Below, piece after piece: positions 1,768 through 18,109 of a DNA stretch of 35,702 nt. Made by a program: the position numbers and the translations under genes. The DNA comes from a virus. Below the pieces are notes generated by a model. That model was not told the DNA's origin. It ran no database searches and worked only from the letters and a program-made list of their open reading frames with translations. The stretch lies in the IMG/VR virus record IMGVR_UViG_3300030012_001951, positions 1 to 35,702 of that record; one strand, 5' to 3'. Every line of letters starts with the position of its first letter. The first letter of the stretch is position 1.

Positions 1768-4700
1768 CTACTGTCCACCGCCTGGTCCTCCACGGCCGCC
1801 GCCACCGCCACCGCCGCCACCTGATGTAAATGTTGACCTTGATGTATTAAATGTAGTTATAAATGCCGTAAATGTAAACGTCGCTGTACTAGTATTAAAA
1901 GTGGTAGTAGTTGATGTATTAAACACAGTTGTATAAATTGTAGTTCTAGAAGTGTTAAACGTTGTTGTAGTATTAAATGTAGTTGTAGTTGTTCTATTAG
2001 TAGATGTTGCAAAAGCAGTAAGAGTATTATACGTGGTTGTAGTGGTTGTACTTCTAGTTGTAGCTGTACTTTTGCTTGTTACTCTACCAGTTAACCATAC
2101 CATTAGTGTTGACTGTTGATATTCAGTGCTTGTGCTTCTACTTGTAGCTGTGTTTCTGTTAGTACTAACAACAGTTGTAGTGCTAAATACTGTTGTAGTA
2201 CTTGTATTAAACACAGTTATGGTATTTCTACTTGTAGATGTATTTCTATTAGTAGATCGTATGTGCGAACTATATTGCGTGTTAAATGTAGTTGTAGTTG
2301 ATCTATTAGTACTTGTAGCAAATGTAGTGGTAAACGTAGTAGTAGTACTTCTATTAGTAGATCTTATATGTGAAGAATATTGAGTCGTAGTATTTCTATT
2401 AGTAGACGTACTCCTTGATTCAGTAGTATTTTTATTTGTAGACGTACTTCTTGACTCAGTTGTATTTCTATTTGTAGATGTCGCTCTGTTTGTAGATCGT
2501 ATATGTGATGAGTACGTGGTTACAAAAGTTGTAGTTGTTTCAAACGTTGTAGTAGTTGTGAATACTGTCGTTGTGTTACGGTTAGTAGTTCTTGATGTGT
2601 TAAACGTGGTAGTTCTACTAGTGTTAAATGTTGTAGTTGTGCTTGTGTTAAATACTGTAGTTGTATTTCTATTCGTTGATCTACTAGTATTAAACGTAGT
2701 TGTAAACGTCGTGGTTGTAGTACGGTTAGTAGTTCTGCTAGTATTAAACGTTGTAGTTCTTGACGTGTTAAATGTGGTGGTTGTACTCGTGTTAAACGTA
2801 GTTGTGGTTGACCTACTAGTTTGCGTGGTTGTACTAGTATTAAAAGTTGTAGTAGTGTTTCTATTAGTAGACGTAGAGAACGTAGTCGTAAATGTAGTTG
2901 TAGTAGTACGATTAGTAGATTTACTCGTGTTAAACGTAGTTGTTCTAGATGTATTGAACGTAGTGGTAGTACTTGTATTAAATGTAGTAGTTGTTGCTCT
3001 GTTAGTGGTTCTACTAGTAGGAAAAGTTGTTGTGAACACAGTATTCGTAGTTCTGTTTGTACTTATAGTTGTAGTTCTTGATGTTTCAAACGTAGTTGTT
3101 CTACTTGTTTCAAATGTTGTTGTAAATGTCGTGGTAGTTGTTCTATTAGTAGAGCGCGACGTGCTAGTAGTAAATACGGTATTAGTAGTTCTATTGGTAC
3201 TATATGTAGTGGTTGTATTAAATACAGTCGTAGTTGATCTGTTAGTACTTATAGTCGTGCTTGTGCTTGTATTGAATACAGTTGTAGTTGATCTACTTGT
3301 ATTGGTACTAAAAACAGTAGTAGTAGATGTATTAAATGTAGTGGTAGTATTTGTAGAAGTATTAAATGTAGTTGTAGTTGCTCTATTAGTAGAGTATGTA
3401 GTTGTGGTATTAAACGTAGTTGTAGTAGACGTGTTAAAAGTAGTAGTAGTATTAGTGCTAGTATTAAACGTTGTAGTTGTAGCTCTATTAGTACTAAATG
3501 TTGTAGTTGTATTAAACGTAGTGGTAGTAGAGGTGTTAAACGTGGTGGTTGTAGACCTGTTAGTAGAATACGTTGTGGTAGTATTAAACACTGTGGTGGT
3601 AGAGGTATTAAACGTAGTTGTTGTACTTGTACTTGTATTGAAAGTTGTAGTAGTATTTCTATTTGTACTATACGTGGTGGTTGTACCAAATGTGGTAGTA
3701 GTGCTTGTATTAAACACTGTTGTAGTAGACTTACTTGTTTCGTATGTAGTAGTTGTAGCCCTGTTGGTAGATATAGTAGTAGTTCTACTTGTAGCTGTAG
3801 ATGTACTGGTATTAAAAGTAGTTGTGGTAGCTCTGTTAGTACTTATAGTTGTTGTTCTACTAGTTTGAGTTGTTGTTGAAGTATTAAATGTAGTTGTTGT
3901 GTTTGTACTTGTGTTAAATGTAGTTGTAGTATTCCTATTAGTACTTATAGTCGTAGTTCTACTAGTTTGCGTGTTAGTACTAGTATTAAATACGGTATTA
4001 GTTGACCTATTAGTTGATACTACCGTGTTAGTACTTCTATTAGTTGATATAGTTGTAGTTCTACTTGTAGATGTTGATTTACTAGTTTCATATGTTGTTG
4101 TTGTAGCTCTATTAGTACTTATTGTAGTTGTTCTGCTAGTGGCTGTAGAGGTAGATGTATTAAAAGTTGTAGTTGTATCTATATTAGTAGATACTACCGT
4201 ATTAGTAGCTCTATTAGTTTCAAATGTAGTTGTAAATACTGTTATTGTGTTAGTACTAGTGTTAAATACTGTTACGGTGTTTGTAGATGTATTAAATACT
4301 GTGTTTGTTGCTCTATTAGTACTAACAACTGTACTTGTTGACTTTTGTGTAACCGTACTGGTGTTAAACACGGTGTTTGTAGTGGTTGATGTGTTAAACG
4401 TTGTTGTAGTGCTTACTGATGTGTTAAACGTAGTTGTCGTAGCTATATTAGTAGTTATCGTAGTCGTAAATACAGTCGTAGTACTTGTAGATGTGTTAAA
4501 TGTTGTTGTGGTATCTATATTAGTGCTGTACTCAGTAGATGTTGATCTATTAGTTGAGTATACAGTGTTAGTAGTTCTATTAGTAGAATATGTAGTAGTA
4601 GTATTTCTATTAGTAGATACCACAGTGCTTGTTGTCTTCTGTGTTACAGTAGACGTATTAAAAACAGTATTAGTAGTTCTAGTTGTTTCAAATATCGTTG

Positions 4701-5151
4701 TTCTACTAGTTTCATACGCTGTTTCAAAAACAGTATTAGTAGTTCTATTAGTAGAAAAAGTAGTAGTAAAGTTTGTTATTGTGTTTGTAGATGTATTAAA
4801 TGTAGTAGTAGTAGATGTACTAGTATTGAAGGTTGTAGTAGTAGCTGTGCTAGTATTGAAAGTTGTGGTAGTATCTATATTAGTTGAGTATACAGTATTA
4901 GTTGCTCTATTAGTACTAACTACTGTATTAGTTGATCTGTTAGTAGAAAATGTAGTATTGAAAGTTGTCGTCGTAGATGTCGACGTATTATAGGTTGTTG
5001 TTGTTGTTGTAGATGTATTAAATGTGGTGGTTGTACTTGTAGATGTGTTAAATGTGGTTGTTGTAGAATACGCCGTCTGCGTCGTACGGTTAGTAGACGT
5101 ACTCTTCGAAGTCGAAGTACTTCTCTTAAATATTCTAAATAAATCCCACAT
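1768..5151 (-). CDS. Giant Thr/Ser/Asn-rich decapeptide-repeat fibre protein
   Basis: A 1127-aa protein made almost only of Thr, Ser, Asn, Arg, Phe, Tyr and Val. The first half shows a clear ten-residue period, for example TTTTFNTSTS and TNTVVSTNRA, with one aromatic or Val per unit; later parts are less regular and include SSHIRSTNR inserts. The N-terminus (MWDLFRIFKR) is different and could be the anchoring end. The C-terminus is SGGGGGGGGGRGGPGGGQ. Repeat copies use different synonymous codons, so the protein pattern is maintained by selection and not only by recent duplication. Alternating Thr and aromatic residues suggest a beta-rich fibre shaft with a Gly-rich tip. Its neighbours (fibre at 5160, fibre at 1) support a virion role. 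No family recognised. Confidence 0.65.
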   Translation of the reverse strand: MWDLFRIFKRSTSTSKSTSTNRTTQTAYSTTTTFNTSTSTTTTFNTSTTTTTTYNTSTSTTTTFNTTFSTNRSTNTVVSTNRATNTVYSTNIDTTTTFNTSTATTTTFNTSTSTTTTFNTSTNTITNFTTTFSTNRTTNTVFETAYETSRTTIFETTRTTNTVFNTSTVTQKTTSTVVSTNRNTTTTYSTNRTTNTVYSTNRSTSTEYSTNIDTTTTFNTSTSTTTVFTTTITTNIATTTTFNTSVSTTTTFNTSTTTNTVFNTSTVTQKSTSTVVSTNRATNTVFNTSTNTVTVFNTSTNTITVFTTTFETNRATNTVVSTNIDTTTTFNTSTSTATSRTTTISTNRATTTTYETSKSTSTSRTTTISTNRSTNTVVSTNRSTNTVFNTSTNTQTSRTTTISTNRNTTTTFNTSTNTTTTFNTSTTTQTSRTTTISTNRATTTTFNTSTSTATSRTTTISTNRATTTTYETSKSTTTVFNTSTTTTFGTTTTYSTNRNTTTTFNTSTSTTTTFNTSTTTVFNTTTTYSTNRSTTTTFNTSTTTTFNTTTTFSTNRATTTTFNTSTNTTTTFNTSTTTTFNTTTTYSTNRATTTTFNTSTNTTTTFNTSTTTVFSTNTSRSTTTVFNTSTSTTISTNRSTTTVFNTTTTYSTNRTTNTVFTTSTSRSTNRTTTTTFTTTFETSRTTTFETSRTTTISTNRTTNTVFTTTFPTSRTTNRATTTTFNTSTTTTFNTSRTTTFNTSKSTNRTTTTTFTTTFSTSTNRNTTTTFNTSTTTQTSRSTTTTFNTSTTTTFNTSRTTTFNTSRTTNRTTTTTFTTTFNTSRSTNRNTTTVFNTSTTTTFNTSRTTTFNTSRTTNRNTTTVFTTTTTFETTTTFVTTYSSHIRSTNRATSTNRNTTESRSTSTNKNTTESRSTSTNRNTTTQYSSHIRSTNRSTTTTFTTTFATSTNRSTTTTFNTQYSSHIRSTNRNTSTSRNTITVFNTSTTTVFSTTTVVSTNRNTATSRSTSTEYQQSTLMVWLTGRVTSKSTATTRSTTTTTTYNTLTAFATSTNRTTTTTFNTTTTFNTSRTTIYTTVFNTSTTTTFNTSTATFTFTAFITTFNTSRSTFTSGGGGGGGGGRGGPGGGQ
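1768..5151. repeat. 30-bp-period degenerate coding repeat array
   Basis: On the plus strand the array reads as endless variations on gtagttgtattaaacgta. The roughly 30-bp period matches the ten-residue protein repeat. Third codon positions vary freely among copies while the amino acids stay in a tiny set. Such an array could expand or contract by recombination, and a related shorter array lies at about 409-690. Confidence 0.8.
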
Positions 5152-11114: not shown

Positions 11115-11160
11115 GGTGACAATAGCCCCTTATTATTAGACTATATAAGGCTAATGTCAC
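11115..11160 (+). promoter_or_regulatory. Conserved inverted repeat, copy A
   Basis: Left arm GGTGACAATAGCCC and right arm AGGCTAATGTCAC. The arms pair as GTGACA/TGTCAC, a one-base mismatch, then TAGCC/GGCTA, with a further short A/T stem inside. A second copy with nearly identical arms but a different loop is at 16701-16747. Conserved arms with an unconserved loop suggest a protein operator or RNA hairpin. Confidence 0.6.
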
Positions 11161-11290: not shown

Positions 11291-11320
11291 TACAATGTAT
11301 ATACGATGCGATATAGATAA
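11291..11320 (+). promoter_or_regulatory. Bipartite promoter-like element, copy 1
   Basis: TACAATGTATATACGAT, seven bases, then AGATAA. Six copies with the same 7-base gap occur between here and 15214. This one is 18 bases before the ATG of the 44-aa gene at 11339 and is followed by CATTACTAAATAAA, also found after copy 2. Confidence 0.6.
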
Positions 11321-11338
11321 CATTACTAAATAAATAAA

Positions 11339-11473
11339 ATGATAAAGTTACTAAAATTTTCCACATATTTTTTATTAGATAGTAAGGCGAAGCGCGGTAT
11401 ACTTTACTCTACTATTTTTACAATAAAACATTTATACTACTTTTACAATCTAAATACGATTAATAAAAGATAA
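11339..11473 (+). CDS. 44-aa microprotein
   Basis: MIKLLKFSTYFLLDSKAKRG... with a hydrophobic N-terminus and basic C-terminus (NLNTINKR). It is too short to be convincing alone, but bipartite element copy 1 lies directly upstream and copy 2 overlaps its 3' end, the same arrangement as for the established genes further right. Function unknown. Confidence 0.4.
   Translation: MIKLLKFSTYFLLDSKAKRGILYSTIFTIKHLYYFYNLNTINKR
11444..11473 (+). promoter_or_regulatory. Bipartite promoter-like element, copy 2
   Basis: TACAATCTAAATACGAT, seven bases, AGATAA, then CATTACTAAATAAC. It overlaps the 3' end of the 44-aa gene and precedes the gene at 11511 by 37 bases. Confidence 0.65.
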
Positions 11474-11510
11474 CATTACTAAATAACTTAAACAATTAAA
11501 TATATACACT

Positions 11511-11738
11511 ATGAATAATATCACTTCTAAAAGATTTGTAGTAAGAAAAAGTCTTCTTAATACAAACACAAACATAACTTTTACTAACAAAGATGGTCAC
11601 GAAATCACTTACAATCACGATAGAGTTTTCGAGATAATGAAAGATAACTTAACTAAGTTACCATGTTGGTTAAAGTACAAGAGTTACACTGCTACTAATA
11701 ATATTCCATTAGTACTTAGAGGTAAGCAACTACAATAG
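11511..11738 (+). CDS. Small early hypothetical protein
   Basis: A 75-aa protein (MNNITSKRFVVRKSLLNTNT...IPLVLRGKQLQ), basic, with a beta-strand-rich beginning and a DRVFEIMKDNLTKLP helix. No known motif. Located after bipartite element copy 2 at the start of the early block, so probably an immediate-early product. Function unknown. Confidence 0.6.
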   Translation: MNNITSKRFVVRKSLLNTNTNITFTNKDGHEITYNHDRVFEIMKDNLTKLPCWLKYKSYTATNNIPLVLRGKQLQ

Positions 11739-11771
11739 TAGTTGTTTACATAACTCTTTAAACTTATAACT

Positions 11772-11906
11772 ATGTATAAAACTACAATTAAAAACTTAGA
11801 AAATCTTTTTCCTTATGATCCTAAAGTGGATGATAGAGAAAAATATAACGAAACTGTACTAGATTTTTTATATGAAGAACTAGTAAGTCAACTACATAAA
11901 AACTAA
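11772..11906 (+). CDS. 44-aa acidic microprotein
   Basis: MYKTTIKNLENLFPYDPKVD... ending YEELVSQLHKN. Acidic and helical in its second half. An A/T-rich leader and tight packing to the next small gene support it. Function unknown. Confidence 0.45.
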   Translation: MYKTTIKNLENLFPYDPKVDDREKYNETVLDFLYEELVSQLHKN

Positions 11907-11909
11907 AAC

Positions 11910-11987
11910 ATGAAAGAAACTATAGAAAATATACTATTTTTAATACTATTAACTTTAACACTATGGATATCACTAATAATAATATAA
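11910..11987 (+). CDS. 25-aa membrane micropeptide
   Basis: MKETIENILFLILLTLTLWI plus SLIII: one transmembrane helix and little else. It starts 4 bases after the previous stop and overlaps the next gene by 25 bases. Very short, so it may be a chance reading frame; a phage membrane micropeptide is possible. Confidence 0.3.
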   Translation: MKETIENILFLILLTLTLWISLIII

Positions 11988-12076
11988 TTGACGGTATGGT
12001 ATACTTATCTGAAATAGACAAGTGGGTACCAATAGAAGAATATAAAGAATATATACAATGGAAAAAGAACGTATAA
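11963..12076 (+). CDS. 37-aa microprotein
   Basis: MDITNNNIIDGMVYLSEIDK... ending EYIQWKKNV. Contains an acidic/aromatic stretch WVPIEEYKEY. Overlaps the next gene by 19 bases, in keeping with the packing of this block. Function unknown. Confidence 0.4.
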   Translation: MDITNNNIIDGMVYLSEIDKWVPIEEYKEYIQWKKNV

Positions 12077-12159
12077 CTATACTCACAAGCGAGCAAATAC
12101 AAATGATTATCGACGAGTGGGATAATAGATACAATGTAAATACGAACACTAACAGATAA
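12058..12159 (+). CDS. 33-aa microprotein
   Basis: MEKERITILTSEQIQMIIDE... ending NVNTNTNR. Charged and probably helical. Its last codons contain bipartite element copy 3 (12130-12158), as also seen for the genes ending at 12966 and 13573. Function unknown. Confidence 0.4.
   Translation: MEKERITILTSEQIQMIIDEWDNRYNVNTNTNR
12130..12159 (+). promoter_or_regulatory. Bipartite promoter-like element, copy 3
   Basis: TACAATGTAAATACGAA, seven bases, AGATAAT. The ATG of the following gene (12167) comes six bases after GATAAT. The upstream part lies inside the preceding gene. Confidence 0.7.
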
Positions 12160-12166
12160 TAATAAT

Positions 12167-12334
12167 ATGAATATACAATATAACGCTTACCAAAATATTA
12201 AGCTTGGTAAGAACACTACAGAAAAAGATTTATACGAGTTATTCGGCGACGCTGTCGCTGTATATGACGAGAACGGCAAAGAAATAAAAGATTACTTTAA
12301 AATTAAATACAGAAATGGCTGGAACAATAGATAA
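12167..12334 (+). CDS. 55-aa early hypothetical protein
   Basis: MNIQYNAYQNIKLGKNTTEK... then LYELFGDAVAVYDENGKEIK and a basic aromatic end (KYRNGWNNR). Well-formed globular composition. It follows bipartite element copy 3 and overlaps the next gene by 20 bases. Proteins with the LYELFGDAVAVYDE phrase seem familiar from small early marine phage proteins, but no function is known to me. Confidence 0.55.
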   Translation: MNIQYNAYQNIKLGKNTTEKDLYELFGDAVAVYDENGKEIKDYFKIKYRNGWNNR

Positions 12335-12758
12335 ATACGAACAAGAACAGCAAGCATTACAAGATGCTTTTGCTAGAAATATGTTACTACGCTATGATAT
12401 ACGCGAAGTAACTACGCGAAGACAAGCACTAAATGGCACTCGAGCTTTCGAGTTTCCTGTTAGTTGCTTCAGTAAACAAATGAGAGCTTATAATGGCGAT
12501 GATAGATTACCTAAAACTAAACTGCGTATGGCGGTTTATAAGTCAGGTATGGTAAGAAAAATTAATGGTGCGTGGTGTCCTTACCCTGTAAATAAAAGAT
12601 ATAGCAGGCTACATAAGTACACAGTAATGCGTAGCGATGGCAAGAAAAGCTGGATGGAAAGCAGACAATATATGCAAATGGCGTACGAAAAACATCTAAG
12701 TATGATGGTGAGTCTCAACTATATGTTAAACTATTACTTAAAAAATTATGCTAAGTAA
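12315..12758 (+). CDS. Hypothetical early protein
   Basis: A 147-aa basic protein (MAGTIDKYEQEQQALQDAFA...LNYYLKNYAK) rich in Arg, Met and Tyr, helical at both ends. No recognised motif. It overlaps the genes on either side by 20 and 11 bases. Function unknown. Confidence 0.6.
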   Translation: MAGTIDKYEQEQQALQDAFARNMLLRYDIREVTTRRQALNGTRAFEFPVSCFSKQMRAYNGDDRLPKTKLRMAVYKSGMVRKINGAWCPYPVNKRYSRLHKYTVMRSDGKKSWMESRQYMQMAYEKHLSMMVSLNYMLNYYLKNYAK

Positions 12759-12966
12759 ACTAAGTATACAAGAATTTGAAAGAATAGCAGATCAAACTGC
12801 AGAAGAAATAATAAAAGATATAAACAGACAGTGCGACTGGGCACTTGATGGTTATGAAATTAAGAAAGACTACATGCAACTTCATAATACACTAATGAAG
12901 GCTGTGACTAAAAGAGTCGCAATTAAAATGGGTGTAGCAACATTAACAAACAAAATTACAACGTAA
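12748..12966 (+). CDS. Hypothetical helical early protein
   Basis: A 72-aa protein (MLSKLSIQEFERIADQTAEE...ATLTNKITT), mostly alpha-helical and charged. Its 3' end overlaps bipartite element copy 4. Function unknown. Confidence 0.55.
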   Translation: MLSKLSIQEFERIADQTAEEIIKDINRQCDWALDGYEIKKDYMQLHNTLMKAVTKRVAIKMGVATLTNKITT

Positions 12967-12986
12967 ATACGATAACTATAAGATAA
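12957..12986 (+). promoter_or_regulatory. Bipartite promoter-like element, copy 4
   Basis: TACAACGTAAATACGAT, seven bases, AGATAAT, then seven bases to the ATG at 12994. It straddles the stop codon of the preceding gene. Confidence 0.7.
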
Positions 12987-12993
12987 TATATAT

Positions 12994-13209
12994 ATGATAT
13001 GTAAATGTAAAAATATTATCCCTCAAGCGCGTGTTAACTTAGGTTATAAGACGTGTGTAGACTGTTCAACCACACAACCTTATGGTTGTATTGCATTAAC
13101 CTACCACAAAACCGGTAACACTATCCAAATTATGCCGAAGGAACAAGCGAGACGCATTCGTAAGTTAACCGAGCGCAGAGGTTACGGCACTATGTTAAGA
13201 AACATATAG
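12994..13209 (+). CDS. Small zinc-ribbon-like protein
   Basis: A 71-aa protein with CKCKNIIPQARVNLGYKTCV and DCSTTQPYGC: paired Cys at residues 3/5 and 21/24, plus Cys31, in a zinc-ribbon-like layout. The C-terminal half is basic (KEQARRIRKLTERRGYG), suiting nucleic acid binding. Led by bipartite element copy 4. Could be a small DksA/TraR-like or anti-host regulator, but it lacks the coiled coil and the call is only zinc-ribbon-like. Confidence 0.55.
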   Translation: MICKCKNIIPQARVNLGYKTCVDCSTTQPYGCIALTYHKTGNTIQIMPKEQARRIRKLTERRGYGTMLRNI

Positions 13210-13221
13210 TTGTATATATAA

Positions 13222-13258
13222 GCGTTATTACTTATCCTAGGAGATTCACTGATAACGC
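13222..13258. repeat. Inverted repeat before the tRNA-like RNA
   Basis: GCGTTAT (13222-13228) and ATAACGC (13252-13258) are perfect 7-bp arms. The interior contains the 8-bp palindrome TCCTAGGA (13235-13242). It abuts the tRNA-like sequence at 13260 and might be a leader hairpin, a processing signal or a recombination site. Confidence 0.45.
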
Positions 13259-13259
13259 A

Positions 13260-13361
13260 GGCCAGGTATGGGTGGTTCGGTTCTTCGGAACGTAGCACAA
13301 TACAGGAAACACGGTAGATCTCGTGTTGAAAACAATGAAGGTTCGATTCCTTCACTGGCCA
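13260..13361 (+). tRNA. tRNA-like RNA with unusual 5' half
   Basis: The 3' half is typical: T-arm GAAGG-TTCGATT-CCTTC (13337-13353) and acceptor strand ACTGGCC plus discriminator A. The 5' strand GGCCAGG (13260-13266) pairs with it over 6 bp, followed by TA as in positions 8-9. Inside are AACACG/CGTGTT arms (13308-13327) with an 8-base loop GTAGATCT and a very stable GTTC-TTCG-GAAC hairpin (13280-13291). At about 102 nt it is longer than a normal tRNA and the D-arm is not clear; CCA is not encoded. Options: divergent or long tRNA, tRNA decoy, or attP copy of a host tRNA end. Confidence 0.45.
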
Positions 13362-13372
13362 CTATGCCAAAC

Positions 13373-13573
13373 ATGAGTTATTGCAGATTTGAAAATACAA
13401 GTAAAGCTATGAGCGACTGCTTGGACGCCATTATGGACGGCGATTATGATGATCTAACAACCTACGAAAGACAAGGTTTGATAGATATTTTAGCCTACTG
13501 TGACGATATACTTCATCACAGAGAGGAAATTGAAGACAGGTTAAATGTTTTACAATCTAAATACGATTACTAA
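13373..13573 (+). CDS. Conserved small phage protein (MSYCRFENT family)
   Basis: A 66-aa acidic protein starting MSYCRFENTSKAMSDCLDAI, a beginning that I have seen often in small marine phage early proteins of unknown function. A longer in-frame reading back to 13268 would translate the tRNA-like T-arm (NEGSIPSLAT), so the ATG at 13373 (or 13364) is chosen. The 3' end contains bipartite element copy 5. Function unknown. Confidence 0.6.
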   Translation: MSYCRFENTSKAMSDCLDAIMDGDYDDLTTYERQGLIDILAYCDDILHHREEIEDRLNVLQSKYDY

Positions 13574-13580
13574 TAGATAA
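13551..13580 (+). promoter_or_regulatory. Bipartite promoter-like element, copy 5
   Basis: TACAATCTAAATACGAT, seven bases, AGATAAT, then six bases to the ATG at 13588. The first part is inside the end of the preceding gene. Confidence 0.7.
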
Positions 13581-13587
13581 TATTAAT

Positions 13588-13806
13588 ATGAATTTATACC
13601 AAAAACTAAAACCAGAAATTAAGTCAAAGTTACAAAGTAACAGTGACAAGTACGCTGTAAGTGTTAGCGGTGTTATTGACAGACTAAAGTCTACACAATA
13701 CTACAACGAGCTAACTATCGGCGATATTAAGCAGATCAGAGCCTTCGGTGATGTATCATCTACTGATATACTCTGGCCTGAAACTATGTTCAACACTAAA
13801 TACTAA
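13588..13806 (+). CDS. Hypothetical early protein
   Basis: A 72-aa protein (MNLYQKLKPEIKSKLQSNSD...DILWPETMFNTKY), mixed alpha/beta, no motif. Directly behind bipartite element copy 5. A degenerate element-like stretch (CAACACTAAATACTAA) covers its 3' end. Function unknown. Confidence 0.55.
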   Translation: MNLYQKLKPEIKSKLQSNSDKYAVSVSGVIDRLKSTQYYNELTIGDIKQIRAFGDVSSTDILWPETMFNTKY

Positions 13807-13809
13807 TGA

Positions 13810-13959
13810 ATGAAAGCTTTATTACACGAGCAAGCTATGATCGAAAAACTCTGCGCGCACTATGGCGAGCAAGAAGTCGAACGATTAATAGCCGAAGCAA
13901 AGACAGATACGTTAATAGAATTATATAACGATATACCTAATGACACAAGCAGAGTTTAA
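13810..13959 (+). CDS. 49-aa acidic microprotein
   Basis: MKALLHEQAMIEKLCAHYGE... then VERLIAEAKTDTLIELYNDI; two amphipathic helices. Overlaps the next gene by 20 bases. An overlapping alternative reading from 13806 gives an Arg-rich, poorly structured peptide and was not preferred. Function unknown. Confidence 0.5.
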   Translation: MKALLHEQAMIEKLCAHYGEQEVERLIAEAKTDTLIELYNDIPNDTSRV

Positions 13960-14248
13960 CAAACTAAATAAAGCTATTGATTTAATGGCTAAGAATATAA
14001 TGGGTGATAAAGGCCCTGAGTATACACTAATGAATGATGATGTGTTAAATAATTTTAAAAGCACAGCTAACAGACTGAATACCAGCGCGTTAAAGGTATG
14101 GGCTACATACTTTGATAAGCAAGTAAATAGTGTATTTGCGCATGTTAATCATGCTAATGTAAAGAAAGCAGAGTCTATTGATAGTAGGTTTGCTGATATT
14201 ATTAACTATGCAAAGCTTGGCTTAGCATTATTTAAAGATGAAAGATGA
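13940..14248 (+). CDS. Nmad1/DUF1599-like nucleotide-modification-associated protein
   Basis: A 102-aa all-helical protein. The pattern KGPEYTLMNDDVLNNFKSTA, then VWATYFDKQVNSVF and ESIDSRFADIINYAKLGLAL, fits the nucleotide modification associated domain 1 (DUF1599): KGxEY..D.L.NF, a WxxYxxKx helix and a final SIxxRxxDxINY helix. The family is found in phages with modified bases and near thymidylate-synthase-type enzymes; one such enzyme is encoded at 21593. Its biochemical role is not settled. Assignment rests on pattern memory, so it is moderate. Confidence 0.5.
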   Translation: MTQAEFNKLNKAIDLMAKNIMGDKGPEYTLMNDDVLNNFKSTANRLNTSALKVWATYFDKQVNSVFAHVNHANVKKAESIDSRFADIINYAKLGLALFKDER

Positions 14249-14403
14249 GAACAGATCACTTGAAAAAACTATTAGAAGTTATTAAAGATGATATGAAAAG
14301 AAGATGTGAACAATCTTTCTATGAAGAACACAGAGATAAATGGGGTGACTACCACAGTGATATACACGAGATGATTAAAGATATCAAGCACGGCCTAAAA
14401 TGA
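14245..14403 (+). CDS. 52-aa hypothetical protein
   Basis: MRTDHLKKLLEVIKDDMKRR... ending HEMIKDIKHGLK; helical, charged, His/Asp-rich. Joined to the genes on both sides by ATGA overlaps, strong support for a real gene. Function unknown. Confidence 0.6.
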   Translation: MRTDHLKKLLEVIKDDMKRRCEQSFYEEHRDKWGDYHSDIHEMIKDIKHGLK

Positions 14404-14696
14404 AGGTAGATGCTAGAGGTAATTTAATCAAGCAAAATCAATACAAGAAAAAGAAATATAAGTATCGATTTACTTGTGATGACGAACACGTAGTCGGCCA
14501 CACTGACGATCCACGTAGAACATTAGAGTCTATATGGAAAGTTTATTGGGACTGCAAAAAAGATATATGCGTAGACCTTGGCACAAAAAACAAAAGTAAA
14601 GAGCTGTGCGTAACACAAGGCAAAGAAACAGTATATACTTATTGCAATGAATATATAACAGTACACAAATTTAAACAATTATTAGATGAGCACTAG
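14400..14696 (+). CDS. Hypothetical early protein
   Basis: A 98-aa basic protein (MKVDARGNLIKQNQYKKKKY...VHKFKQLLDEH) with four Cys scattered in beta-rich sequence. ATGA overlap upstream and an 11-base overlap downstream. Function unknown. Confidence 0.55.
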   Translation: MKVDARGNLIKQNQYKKKKYKYRFTCDDEHVVGHTDDPRRTLESIWKVYWDCKKDICVDLGTKNKSKELCVTQGKETVYTYCNEYITVHKFKQLLDEH

Positions 14697-15183
14697 AAAT
14701 ATGACAATGGTAATCGATAGAGATTACGCAAGCAACCACGAACTAGGTTTTGCACAAAACCCTGGGTTGCTAACTGAACACAGCTATGTTAACATGTACT
14801 TGCATCACGATGGTTATCCTGAGTGGCAAGGTGTACAAATAGCTAACTGGTTACTAGCTAACCAAAAAATTAACGATGGCACTAAGCTTGCAGCTAAACT
14901 TGTACACGATATGTACTATGACAGTTGCTACTTATATGAAGGCCCAGAAGTTATAGATCATAACTATACATACGTAATATGGACAGGTAATAACAAAGAT
15001 ATGTGGGTAAGCTGCTATGATCAATATAGAACAGCAAATGTATTTGTACTTACACCTGACAAAATACTCGCGAAGTACAGCAACCAGAAGTATGACTACA
15101 CCGACTGGGTTACGCAAACTAGATCACAACAAGAAAAACAGTATGTAGCAAAAGATCTACTACACCCGTCAGGTTATGATTAG
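14686..15183 (+). CDS. Hypothetical early protein
   Basis: A 165-aa protein rich in Tyr, Asn and Trp (MSTRNMTMVIDRDYASNHEL...LLHPSGYD). The central phrase YEGPEVIDHNYTYVIWTG suggests a compact beta fold. No catalytic motif recognised. A member of the early operon. Function unknown. Confidence 0.55.
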   Translation: MSTRNMTMVIDRDYASNHELGFAQNPGLLTEHSYVNMYLHHDGYPEWQGVQIANWLLANQKINDGTKLAAKLVHDMYYDSCYLYEGPEVIDHNYTYVIWTGNNKDMWVSCYDQYRTANVFVLTPDKILAKYSNQKYDYTDWVTQTRSQQEKQYVAKDLLHPSGYD

Positions 15184-15184
15184 A

Positions 15185-15214
15185 CACAATGTAAATACGA
15201 TATATGAAAGATAA
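15185..15214 (+). promoter_or_regulatory. Bipartite promoter-like element, copy 6
   Basis: CACAATGTAAATACGAT, seven bases, AGATAA(T). Here the ATG of the next gene (15204) lies within the seven-base gap, unlike copies 3-5. If AGATAAT is a -10 box, the true start may be a later Met of that gene. Confidence 0.6.
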
Positions 15215-15410
15215 TACTGATGAATTTGATTTAAGACTTGACATATCTGATATGATGTGGGAAGTTGACAGATTAAAAGATATAGAACAAGCATACGTAG
15301 ATGCAGAAGAATACGAAAAAGCTGCTATAATATTAGAAAGGCAGAAGCGATTAATACGATTAATTAGTAACAAAGAAAAAAAACTAAAACAATATGACGA
15401 CACACTTTAA
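15204..15410 (+). CDS. Small helical protein with UVR-like motif
   Basis: A 68-aa protein. YVDAEEYEKAAIILERQKRL (about 31-50) resembles the UvrB/UvrC interaction (UVR) motif, which is a helical hairpin. Alternative starts are the tandem Met at residues 17-18 (15252/15255). Overlaps the DNA ligase gene by 17 bases. Could bind a host repair or Clp-type partner; this is speculative. Confidence 0.5.
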   Translation: MKDNTDEFDLRLDISDMMWEVDRLKDIEQAYVDAEEYEKAAIILERQKRLIRLISNKEKKLKQYDDTL

Positions 15411-16700: not shown

Positions 16701-16747
16701 GGTGACAAAAGCCCTATATAATACTAATAATAACAGGCTAATGTCAC
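16701..16747 (+). promoter_or_regulatory. Conserved inverted repeat, copy B, over the HTH gene start
   Basis: Left arm GGTGACAAAAGCCC, right arm AGGCTAATGTCAC. The right arm contains the ATG at 16741. Copy A (11115-11160) has the same arms. As RNA the hairpin would hide the start codon; as DNA it could be an autoregulatory operator. Confidence 0.6.
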
Positions 16748-17361
16748 ACAGAAATTTAGAGTATCTACATCGTAATAGAATAATATACAGAGGTTATCCT
16801 GAAAATGACGAGCCTACCGATATATATTGGTGGGGTAGTTATTATGAGGATGGTACTTATGAATGTTATGAGCTGTTTAGAAGTACAGCTAAGATTACTA
16901 CGTTTAGATCTTTAAAGTGGCATTTGTCCGTGTTATGGTGGTTAAATCCTAATATTGATAGAAAAAAGTTTAAAAATTTGTCACAATTTATTTGTGATAA
17001 GTCAAATGGATTTATTACCTTTACAATACCAAGTAAAACCCTTGATCACTTAATTGATAGTTTTGCTAAAACTAAGAAGCCTCCTAAAAATAAATTGAGG
17101 AAGATTATATTTAAGCCAAACTTATTAATAGATGTATCTGAAAAACTAAAAATAGTTGGGTCGTTAATTGGCAGGGGAAGAATATCAAGAACTGATATTT
17201 ATGAGTGGATGTTGAATATTAACAGCTTGGGACAAAAGATAACTATAGCTAAACTAGCTAATTGTTTGAAATGTTCTTCAAGAACTATTCATAGACATAT
17301 GAGTGATGAATTAAAAAATGAGAAAGAACAATTAAACAATATGTTAGATGAGAAAGTATAA
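16741..17361 (+). CDS. HTH regulatory protein, putative
   Basis: A 206-aa protein from the ATG at 16741 (MSHRNLEYLHRNRIIYRGYP). A GTG at 16702 would add 13 residues encoded by the inverted repeat, so ATG is preferred. The C-terminal part contains ITIAKLANCLKCSSRTIHRH (about 165-184), a good helix-turn-helix, followed by MSDELKNEKEQLNNMLDEKV. The N-terminal part is Trp/Tyr-rich. It overlaps the sigma gene by 14 bases. Likely a DNA-binding regulator or replication initiator-like protein, possibly acting on the inverted repeats at 11115 and 16701. Confidence 0.55.
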   Translation: MSHRNLEYLHRNRIIYRGYPENDEPTDIYWWGSYYEDGTYECYELFRSTAKITTFRSLKWHLSVLWWLNPNIDRKKFKNLSQFICDKSNGFITFTIPSKTLDHLIDSFAKTKKPPKNKLRKIIFKPNLLIDVSEKLKIVGSLIGRGRISRTDIYEWMLNINSLGQKITIAKLANCLKCSSRTIHRHMSDELKNEKEQLNNMLDEKV

Positions 17362-18109
17362 CGTTGAGAACTATGTCAGGTATAAAACTGATATAGCAAA
17401 CGTCTTAACAAAAGACTTGTATGAATCAGAAGATTATAAGAGCATGTCTCGTGATCAACTGATTATAAAATTTCTACCGTTAGTAGAAAATATAGCTAAA
17501 AAGTTTTCAACAGCGCAACCAGCGTCAGGCGTACTAGATATATTAGATCTGATACAGTTTGGTAATATAGGTTTAATAAATGCTGTTGATAAAATAGTAC
17601 ATGAAAAACTAGATGAATCAAAGGATAAGAATAATACATTGAAATCATTTTTATCTAAACGTATCAAAGGTAACATAAGACGTTCCATTGATATAAATAA
17701 AGGTGGTTTACGTATACCTGAGCATAAGCTCGCAGAGATGAGGAATCAAACTGCTGACCGAAATGCTGTAAGTAAATTCTTTGACTCATTGTTTTTAAGT
17801 ATTGAAGAGATATCTGAGAATAATAACCAGGTCTTTGATATACCAGATAAACAACCTGAATATAATGAGGAAATGTTTAATATCTATTTAAAGTCTTTAT
17901 TGCAAAGATATTTAAATAGAAAAGAGTACGAAGTACTGCGATTAAGCTATGGCTTAGACTGTCCAAAACATAGTGCTAAAGAAATAGCACAGACACTACA
18001 GATTAAAGGCCAGAGTGCTTATGTAAGAGTTTCGCAGCTTAAAAAACAAGCTGTTGAAAGATTAAAACAGAGTGTTAAACACTCAGAAATTTTAGATTAT
18101 ATACCATGA
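17348..18109 (+). CDS. Phage sigma-70-family factor
   Basis: A 253-aa protein. Region 2: LIIKFLPLVENIAKKFSTAQ, DILDLIQFGNIGLINAVDKI and LKSFLSKRIKGNIRRSI, the core-binding and -10-recognition segment. A region 3-like stretch follows (GGLRIPEHKL). Region 4: YEVLRLSYGLDCPKHSAKEI and SAYVRVSQLKKQAVERLKQS, the -35-binding HTH. Region 1.1 is absent. It would direct host RNA polymerase to phage promoters; the bipartite element of the early block is one candidate target. Overlaps both neighbours (ATGA with the Erf gene). Confidence 0.85.
   Translation: MRKYNVENYVRYKTDIANVLTKDLYESEDYKSMSRDQLIIKFLPLVENIAKKFSTAQPASGVLDILDLIQFGNIGLINAVDKIVHEKLDESKDKNNTLKSFLSKRIKGNIRRSIDINKGGLRIPEHKLAEMRNQTADRNAVSKFFDSLFLSIEEISENNNQVFDIPDKQPEYNEEMFNIYLKSLLQRYLNRKEYEVLRLSYGLDCPKHSAKEIAQTLQIKGQSAYVRVSQLKKQAVERLKQSVKHSEILDYIP

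Follow-up and report, generated by a model that had tools for sequence, protein, structure and literature searches.

A conserved bipartite element, a candidate promoter class, ahead of the early genes of an uncultured phage lineage

The small genes that open the early arm of one uncultured, marine Bacteroidetes-type phage lineage are preceded by a conserved bipartite element, which appears to represent a dedicated promoter class of that lineage and is apparently undescribed; our literature search of open papers found no description of the motif, although this does not prove it unpublished. Its conservation, spacing, position and orientation, an initiator signal at +1, the coincidence of +1 with start codons and the co-occurrence with a phage sigma gene were all established from sequence. 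That the element is a promoter with +1 at the predicted place is very probable whichever factor reads it, and the fuller explanation, in which the host core enzyme and a phage-encoded FliA-like sigma factor would read it, is on balance the one we favour. Little is known about promoters in Bacteroidetes phages, whose host phylum has an aberrant primary promoter. The element predicts, to the nucleotide, the transcription starts of first genes and of leaderless ones across dozens of uncultured phages, and with one sigma gene named as its likely reader, takeover of host transcription becomes directly testable. A tight promoter, seemingly silent in the host, is also on offer.

Copies in the window and the +1 signal

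The window covers an entire IMG/VR virus record (35,702 bp, 66% A+T). A scan allowing up to three mismatches found exactly six copies of the element, all on the + strand, where 100 dinucleotide-preserving shuffles gave an expectation of zero. This bears out the preliminary description, which had listed six copies with a constant gap at these positions, and the rest of the record yielded no additional one. A seventh copy with a right block was absent from the window in both a left-block-only and a whole-pattern scan. The same scans gave no right block at 12300 and 13788, where degenerate relatives had been suspected, and these sites are not members of the family; a match at 12332-12341 (TAAATACGAA) is solitary and its right block is missing. 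The copies are as follows, with +1 of each assigned by a rule derived from 451 sites (see below).

11291..11328, + strand: predicted class-I promoter copy 1; left block at -37 to -22, GATAAC at -12 to -7; predicted +1 at A 11328
11444..11481, + strand: predicted class-I promoter copy 2 (pattern match); predicted +1 at A 11481, 30-nt leader to gene 11511
12130..12167, + strand: predicted class-I promoter copy 3 (pattern match); predicted +1 at A of ATG 12167, leaderless
12957..12994, + strand: predicted class-I promoter copy 4; predicted +1 at A of ATG 12994, leaderless; product starts MICKCKNI
13551..13588, + strand: predicted class-I promoter copy 5 (pattern match); predicted +1 at A of ATG 13588, leaderless
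15185..15222, + strand: predicted class-I promoter copy 6 (pattern match); predicted +1 at G 15222
Sub-blocks of the element: TACAA, TAAATACGA and GATAAT

The spacing between the blocks is constant over hundreds of copies, but the gap is 9 nt (offsets 16-24) rather than the seven bases originally described, and two bases that had been placed within the blocks, the 17th 'T' and the first A of AGATAA, are biases only and not fixed. The right block extends as GATAATAT, followed by an initiator with T at -1 and a purine at +1. Copies 1 and 2 carry GATAAC and have the flank ATTACTAAATAA in common. For copy 6 the predicted +1 (15222) falls past the start codon that had been listed (15204), and the gene would have to start further down, for example at ATG 15252, in which case its leader would also be 30 nt.

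For the analysis of the +1 signal, sites were picked by the left block alone (n = 451), and the right block and downstream bases were then read. GATAA(T/C) was located at offset 25 from the start of the left block in 431 of the 451 sites, and the base 12 nt past its G was a purine in 99.3% of those sites. Where the +1 base did not belong to an ATG, A and G were about equally frequent, and the preceding base was mostly T. The leader past +1 is A-rich and, in the leadered class, almost G-free for some 12 nt. ORF starts peaked on the predicted +1 base (107 of 549 assigned, with 1 and 3 at the adjacent positions), were rare upstream of it, and formed a second, broad group about 30-37 nt from the G of GATAAT. 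A -10 hexamer begins 12 nt ahead of +1, which would put the left block at -37 to -22 and GATAAT at -12 to -7. A -10 hexamer whose first base stands 12 nt before a purine +1 is the arrangement of a sigma70-type promoter, and these signals strongly support both a canonical -10 role for GATAAT, with +1 12 nt from its G, and the prediction that window copies 3-5 yield leaderless mRNAs. Both ideas had been raised in the preliminary description; the purine and start-codon signals now predict +1 to the nucleotide.

In the layout that we propose, a promoter for a bacterial-type (multi-subunit) RNA polymerase would consist of TACAAWSTAAATACGA (-37 to -22), 9 variable bp, GATAAT (-12 to -7), A at -6, T at -1 and a purine at +1. 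Each genome carries about 5-10 copies, and almost all of them point into the small genes at the start of the early arm. In about one copy in five the start codon stands exactly on the predicted +1, which would produce a leaderless mRNA, and most of the others have A-rich leaders of roughly 10-30 nt. This leaderless share is notable, since 87% of the predicted transcripts of Flavobacterium johnsoniae have leaders longer than 10 nt (PMC6847099). The genes behind the element would be transcribed early, a label that we infer from gene order.

Distribution in the lineage and gene order

The preliminary description had proposed looking for the element in related phages, and it is present in dozens of IMG/VR contigs. 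Exact scans of viral contigs returned 5 and 27 stretches with the element, and the same uncultured lineage accounts for many dozens of IMG/VR contigs that bear it. Contigs found through their sigma or primase gene nearly all had copies where enough upstream DNA exists, and the copies lay on the early-gene strand in all of the primase- and sigma-selected loci; terminase-selected contigs, which are mostly short, were left out of the analysis. A 39-column matrix scored 131 sites above 8 bits across 22 contigs, of which 126 exceeded 25 bits; reversed sequence gave no hit. When repeats were sought de novo, the element was the most repeated 31-mer of the early arm in the window and in two further genomes (G423 and G001); the most repeated early-arm 31-mer of elemoA, phi38:1 and ctfjg026 was not the element.

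Gene order in the lineage is constant. It begins at a divergent junction with the structural arm, followed by copies 1 and 2 and, usually, a conserved 75-aa gene (11511), and it continues with more copies among small genes, ligase, an HTH-like protein, sigma, ERF, a PDDEXK protein and primase. Three genes of this region are referred to below.

11511..11738, + strand: conserved first early gene, 75 aa (tblastn map); closely follows a class-I copy in almost every motif-bearing contig examined
16741..17361, + strand: protein with a weak C-terminal HTH (HTH_11, E 0.003, under cut-off), a conserved neighbour and rival candidate regulator
17348..18109, + strand: phage sigma70-family factor, candidate reader (TIGR02937, Pfam, phrog_351, 1rp3, Foldseek)

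Relative to sigma, most copies fall between -10 and -2 kb; a smaller set is found at +2 kb, and past +5 kb there is none. Some phages have an extra reverse copy back to back with copy 1. One contig of 79.5 kb (G421) has sigma close to either end and is apparently a complete genome of about 73.5 kb. Sigma-less motif-bearing contigs that are long and were mapped in full end before the ligase-sigma region, with their copies pointing at the contig end. Cultured relatives, identified by terminase and portal, are the Flavobacterium elemo phages, Cellulophaga phi38:1 and ctfjg026, and they likewise have a divergent two-arm layout; neither the element nor the sigma gene was found in those tested (elemo phages, phi38:1 and ctfjg026). 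From these relatives the hosts are presumed to be Flavobacteriia. The early arm of ctfjg026 (MW202828, L307) contains a palindromic iteron, ATCGGTGTCGTTAACGACACC, repeated at least five times, which is probably an operator.

The candidate reader and alternative explanations

The protein encoded at 17348-18109 contains regions 2 and 4 of the sigma70 family: it scored above cut-off for TIGR02937 and just under cut-off for the Pfam region 2 and region 4 families, and it matched phrog_351. Among solved structures FliA (1rp3) is its closest relative, and an invariant SF..KRI.G stretch of the phage protein aligns with the matching region of FliA. A predicted model (mean pLDDT 76.7, pTM 0.45) matched sigma factors in Foldseek, with low whole-chain TM-scores. 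The motif and the FliA-like sigma gene co-occur in one lineage and both are absent from the cultured relatives tested. This co-occurrence, together with the long sigma-less contigs ending before the sigma position, makes sigma the best candidate reader. The preliminary description had named it as one possibility besides another factor; on co-occurrence and FliA kinship it is plausible and favoured rather than proven, and covariation does not single it out. In Mantel tests with 56 phages, motif-distance correlations were 0.33 for sigma, 0.35 for primase, 0.37 for the PDDEXK protein, 0.28 for ERF and 0.29 for the HTH-like protein, and partial tests did not single out sigma. The co-occurrence of motif and sigma could reflect a single evolutionary event.

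Promoters recognized by FliA (sigma-28) have the consensus TAAAGTTT-n11-GCCGATAA, with GATAA in the -10 (PMC2859248). The element shares this GATAA, consistent with FliA being the nearest solved relative of the phage sigma. In contrast, its TACAAWSTAAATACGA is unlike the FliA -35 sequence TAAAGTTT with its n11 spacer, its TAAA stands 18, not 22, bp before GATAA, and no GCC precedes GATAA. T4 middle promoters consist of a MotA box and a -10; they resemble the element in that a -10 box is accompanied by a phage-specific element replacing the -35 box, and differ from it in that the upstream block here is 16 bp long and lies at -37 to -22.

If the host core enzyme with the phage sigma reads the element, sigma would act back on the DNA preceding its own gene. 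Since almost every copy precedes the sigma gene and none is found past +5 kb, the sigma regulon would consist mostly of this upstream region, which would leave the first synthesis of sigma unexplained; a host-type promoter for the sigma operon was looked for and none was found. This gap, the clustering of copies at the very start of the early arm, and a left block that exceeds the usual -35 box in length, as though it bound a second protein, would suit a different arrangement, in which the same promoter is immediate-early and host RNA polymerase reads it after being redirected by some other phage or virion factor (for example the HTH protein at 16741-17361, whose gene adjoins sigma, or an injected protein), with sigma serving later genes. 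We consider this a possible but less probable explanation. No candidate factor has a specific link to the motif, the correlation of the HTH-like protein in the Mantel tests is no better than that of other genes, and this protein has a candidate operator of its own, a GTGACA inverted repeat. The HTH-like gene, whose start was re-assigned from GTG 16702, overlaps the start of the sigma gene. The repeat, GTGACAnnAGCC-N22-24-GGCTAnTGTCAC, occurs in the window at 11116-11160 (divergent junction) and at 16702-16747 (start of the HTH-like gene), where ATG 16741 lies inside its right arm. Relatives have both copies as well, and the one at the junction gives a good RNA fold (z -4.0); GTGACAnnAGCC/GGCTAnTGTCAC is possibly an operator or a translational switch. 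A search for a late-arm promoter by k-mer enrichment yielded only start-codon artefacts and this repeat.

Readings that change the nature of the element itself fare poorly. The T7 promoter sequence is AATACGACTCACTATAG, and AATACGA-N8-AG of the element matches it at seven bases with identical spacing. A T7-type promoter of a single-subunit RNA polymerase is nonetheless highly improbable, because the bases between are free (columns 16-24 are variable) whereas T7-type enzymes read -9 to -2, the purine signal lies 12 nt beyond T7's +1, and the large ORFs examined of one apparently complete genome included no polymerase family; PF00940 had no match in 15 contigs, which weighs little since the control also gave none. 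A virion RNA polymerase was sought within the giant late proteins and rejected; a DVDGD motif seen in one of them is not conserved in its homologs. Phage AR9 likewise has many identical early promoters at a fixed distance to the start (AAATATATATTAT-6N-G), but these are read by a virion RNA polymerase and give mRNA leaders of 26-491 nt (PMC5312081), whereas our analysis turned up no such polymerase, and many predicted starts coincide with the ATG. The Bacteroidetes primary promoter, with TAHHTTTG as its -7 box (PMC6847099), is that of the presumed host group, and the element resembles it in A at -11 and in A-rich leaders. Flavobacteriia as presumed hosts would accord with a variant of this promoter (sigma-ABfr), which is nevertheless very unlikely: TAHHTTTG is absent at -12 to -5 and the box is at background level at the junction, the element has G instead of T at -12, lacks TTTG at -8 to -5, and carries a strong -37 to -22 block in place of a weak -33 box. 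Furthermore, across 396 genomes belonging to the same order as a motif-bearing Flavobacteriales MAG, the element did not outnumber the reversed control (the exceptions being a single exact copy on a chromosome and a contig that has six), and a general host regulon was dropped on the same grounds. The TAAATA core of the left block had been likened to T4-type late promoters. With this block at about -30 to -25, all purine and start-codon signals 12 nt past GATAAT and none at the distance expected from TAAATA, GATAAT left unexplained, and copies standing before early, not structural, genes, a T4-type late promoter with TAAATA as its -10 box is barely conceivable. Finally, a protein-binding operator, a recombination site or an mRNA element could explain high conservation across 16 bp, and local duplication may add to within-phage similarity, but strict orientation, the +1 purine and start-codon alignment make any of these a very poor fit, and the otherwise variable distance to the start codon is unlike that of a ribosome-binding element.

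Copies elsewhere and other features

Exact matches in GTDB genomes comprised ten stretches, several on phage-looking contigs in MAGs and others as single copies in long Bacteroidetes contigs. Strong single copies are present on Bacteroidetes chromosomal contigs at L127:323, L129:180(-), L130:4274, L125:3776, L128:5810(-) and L124:4719. The last of these lies 3 bp after tRNA-Asp on a contig with host genes, and its downstream gene would be leaderless; the chromosomal copies also include one before a TerB-domain gene near parAB. Host genes with such copies are perhaps wired to infection. A Prochlorococcus single-cell assembly includes a 64-kb phage-like contig with a strong lone copy (L126:3131(-), or G010:C9:11131(-)) ahead of a 132-aa gene; no relative of this phage sigma was found there beyond weak matches on other contigs. 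On a phage-like contig in MAG G381 most copies have a shifted variant, TAAACACGA. It is conceivable, though we doubt it, that the FliA-like phage sigma and the 16-bp upstream element make up an infection-only transcription programme in Bacteroidetes hosts with many leaderless early mRNAs, which would also switch on a few host chromosomal genes and at least one unrelated phage-like contig only during infection.

Three further features were observed. A tRNA-like sequence at window 13260-13362 (+), with acceptor GGCCAG/CTGGCC, T arm GAAGGTTCGATTCCTTC and an odd middle, was missed by ARAGORN and at Rfam gathering cut-offs. A 2920-aa late protein (L393; G421 34948-43710) contains the crAss-phage muzzle domain PF25731, and the lineage thus shares virion parts with crAss-like phages. 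In the late arm of the window, 1768-5151 (-) encodes a 1127-aa protein of short S/T/N/F-rich repeats (TTTTFNTST...).
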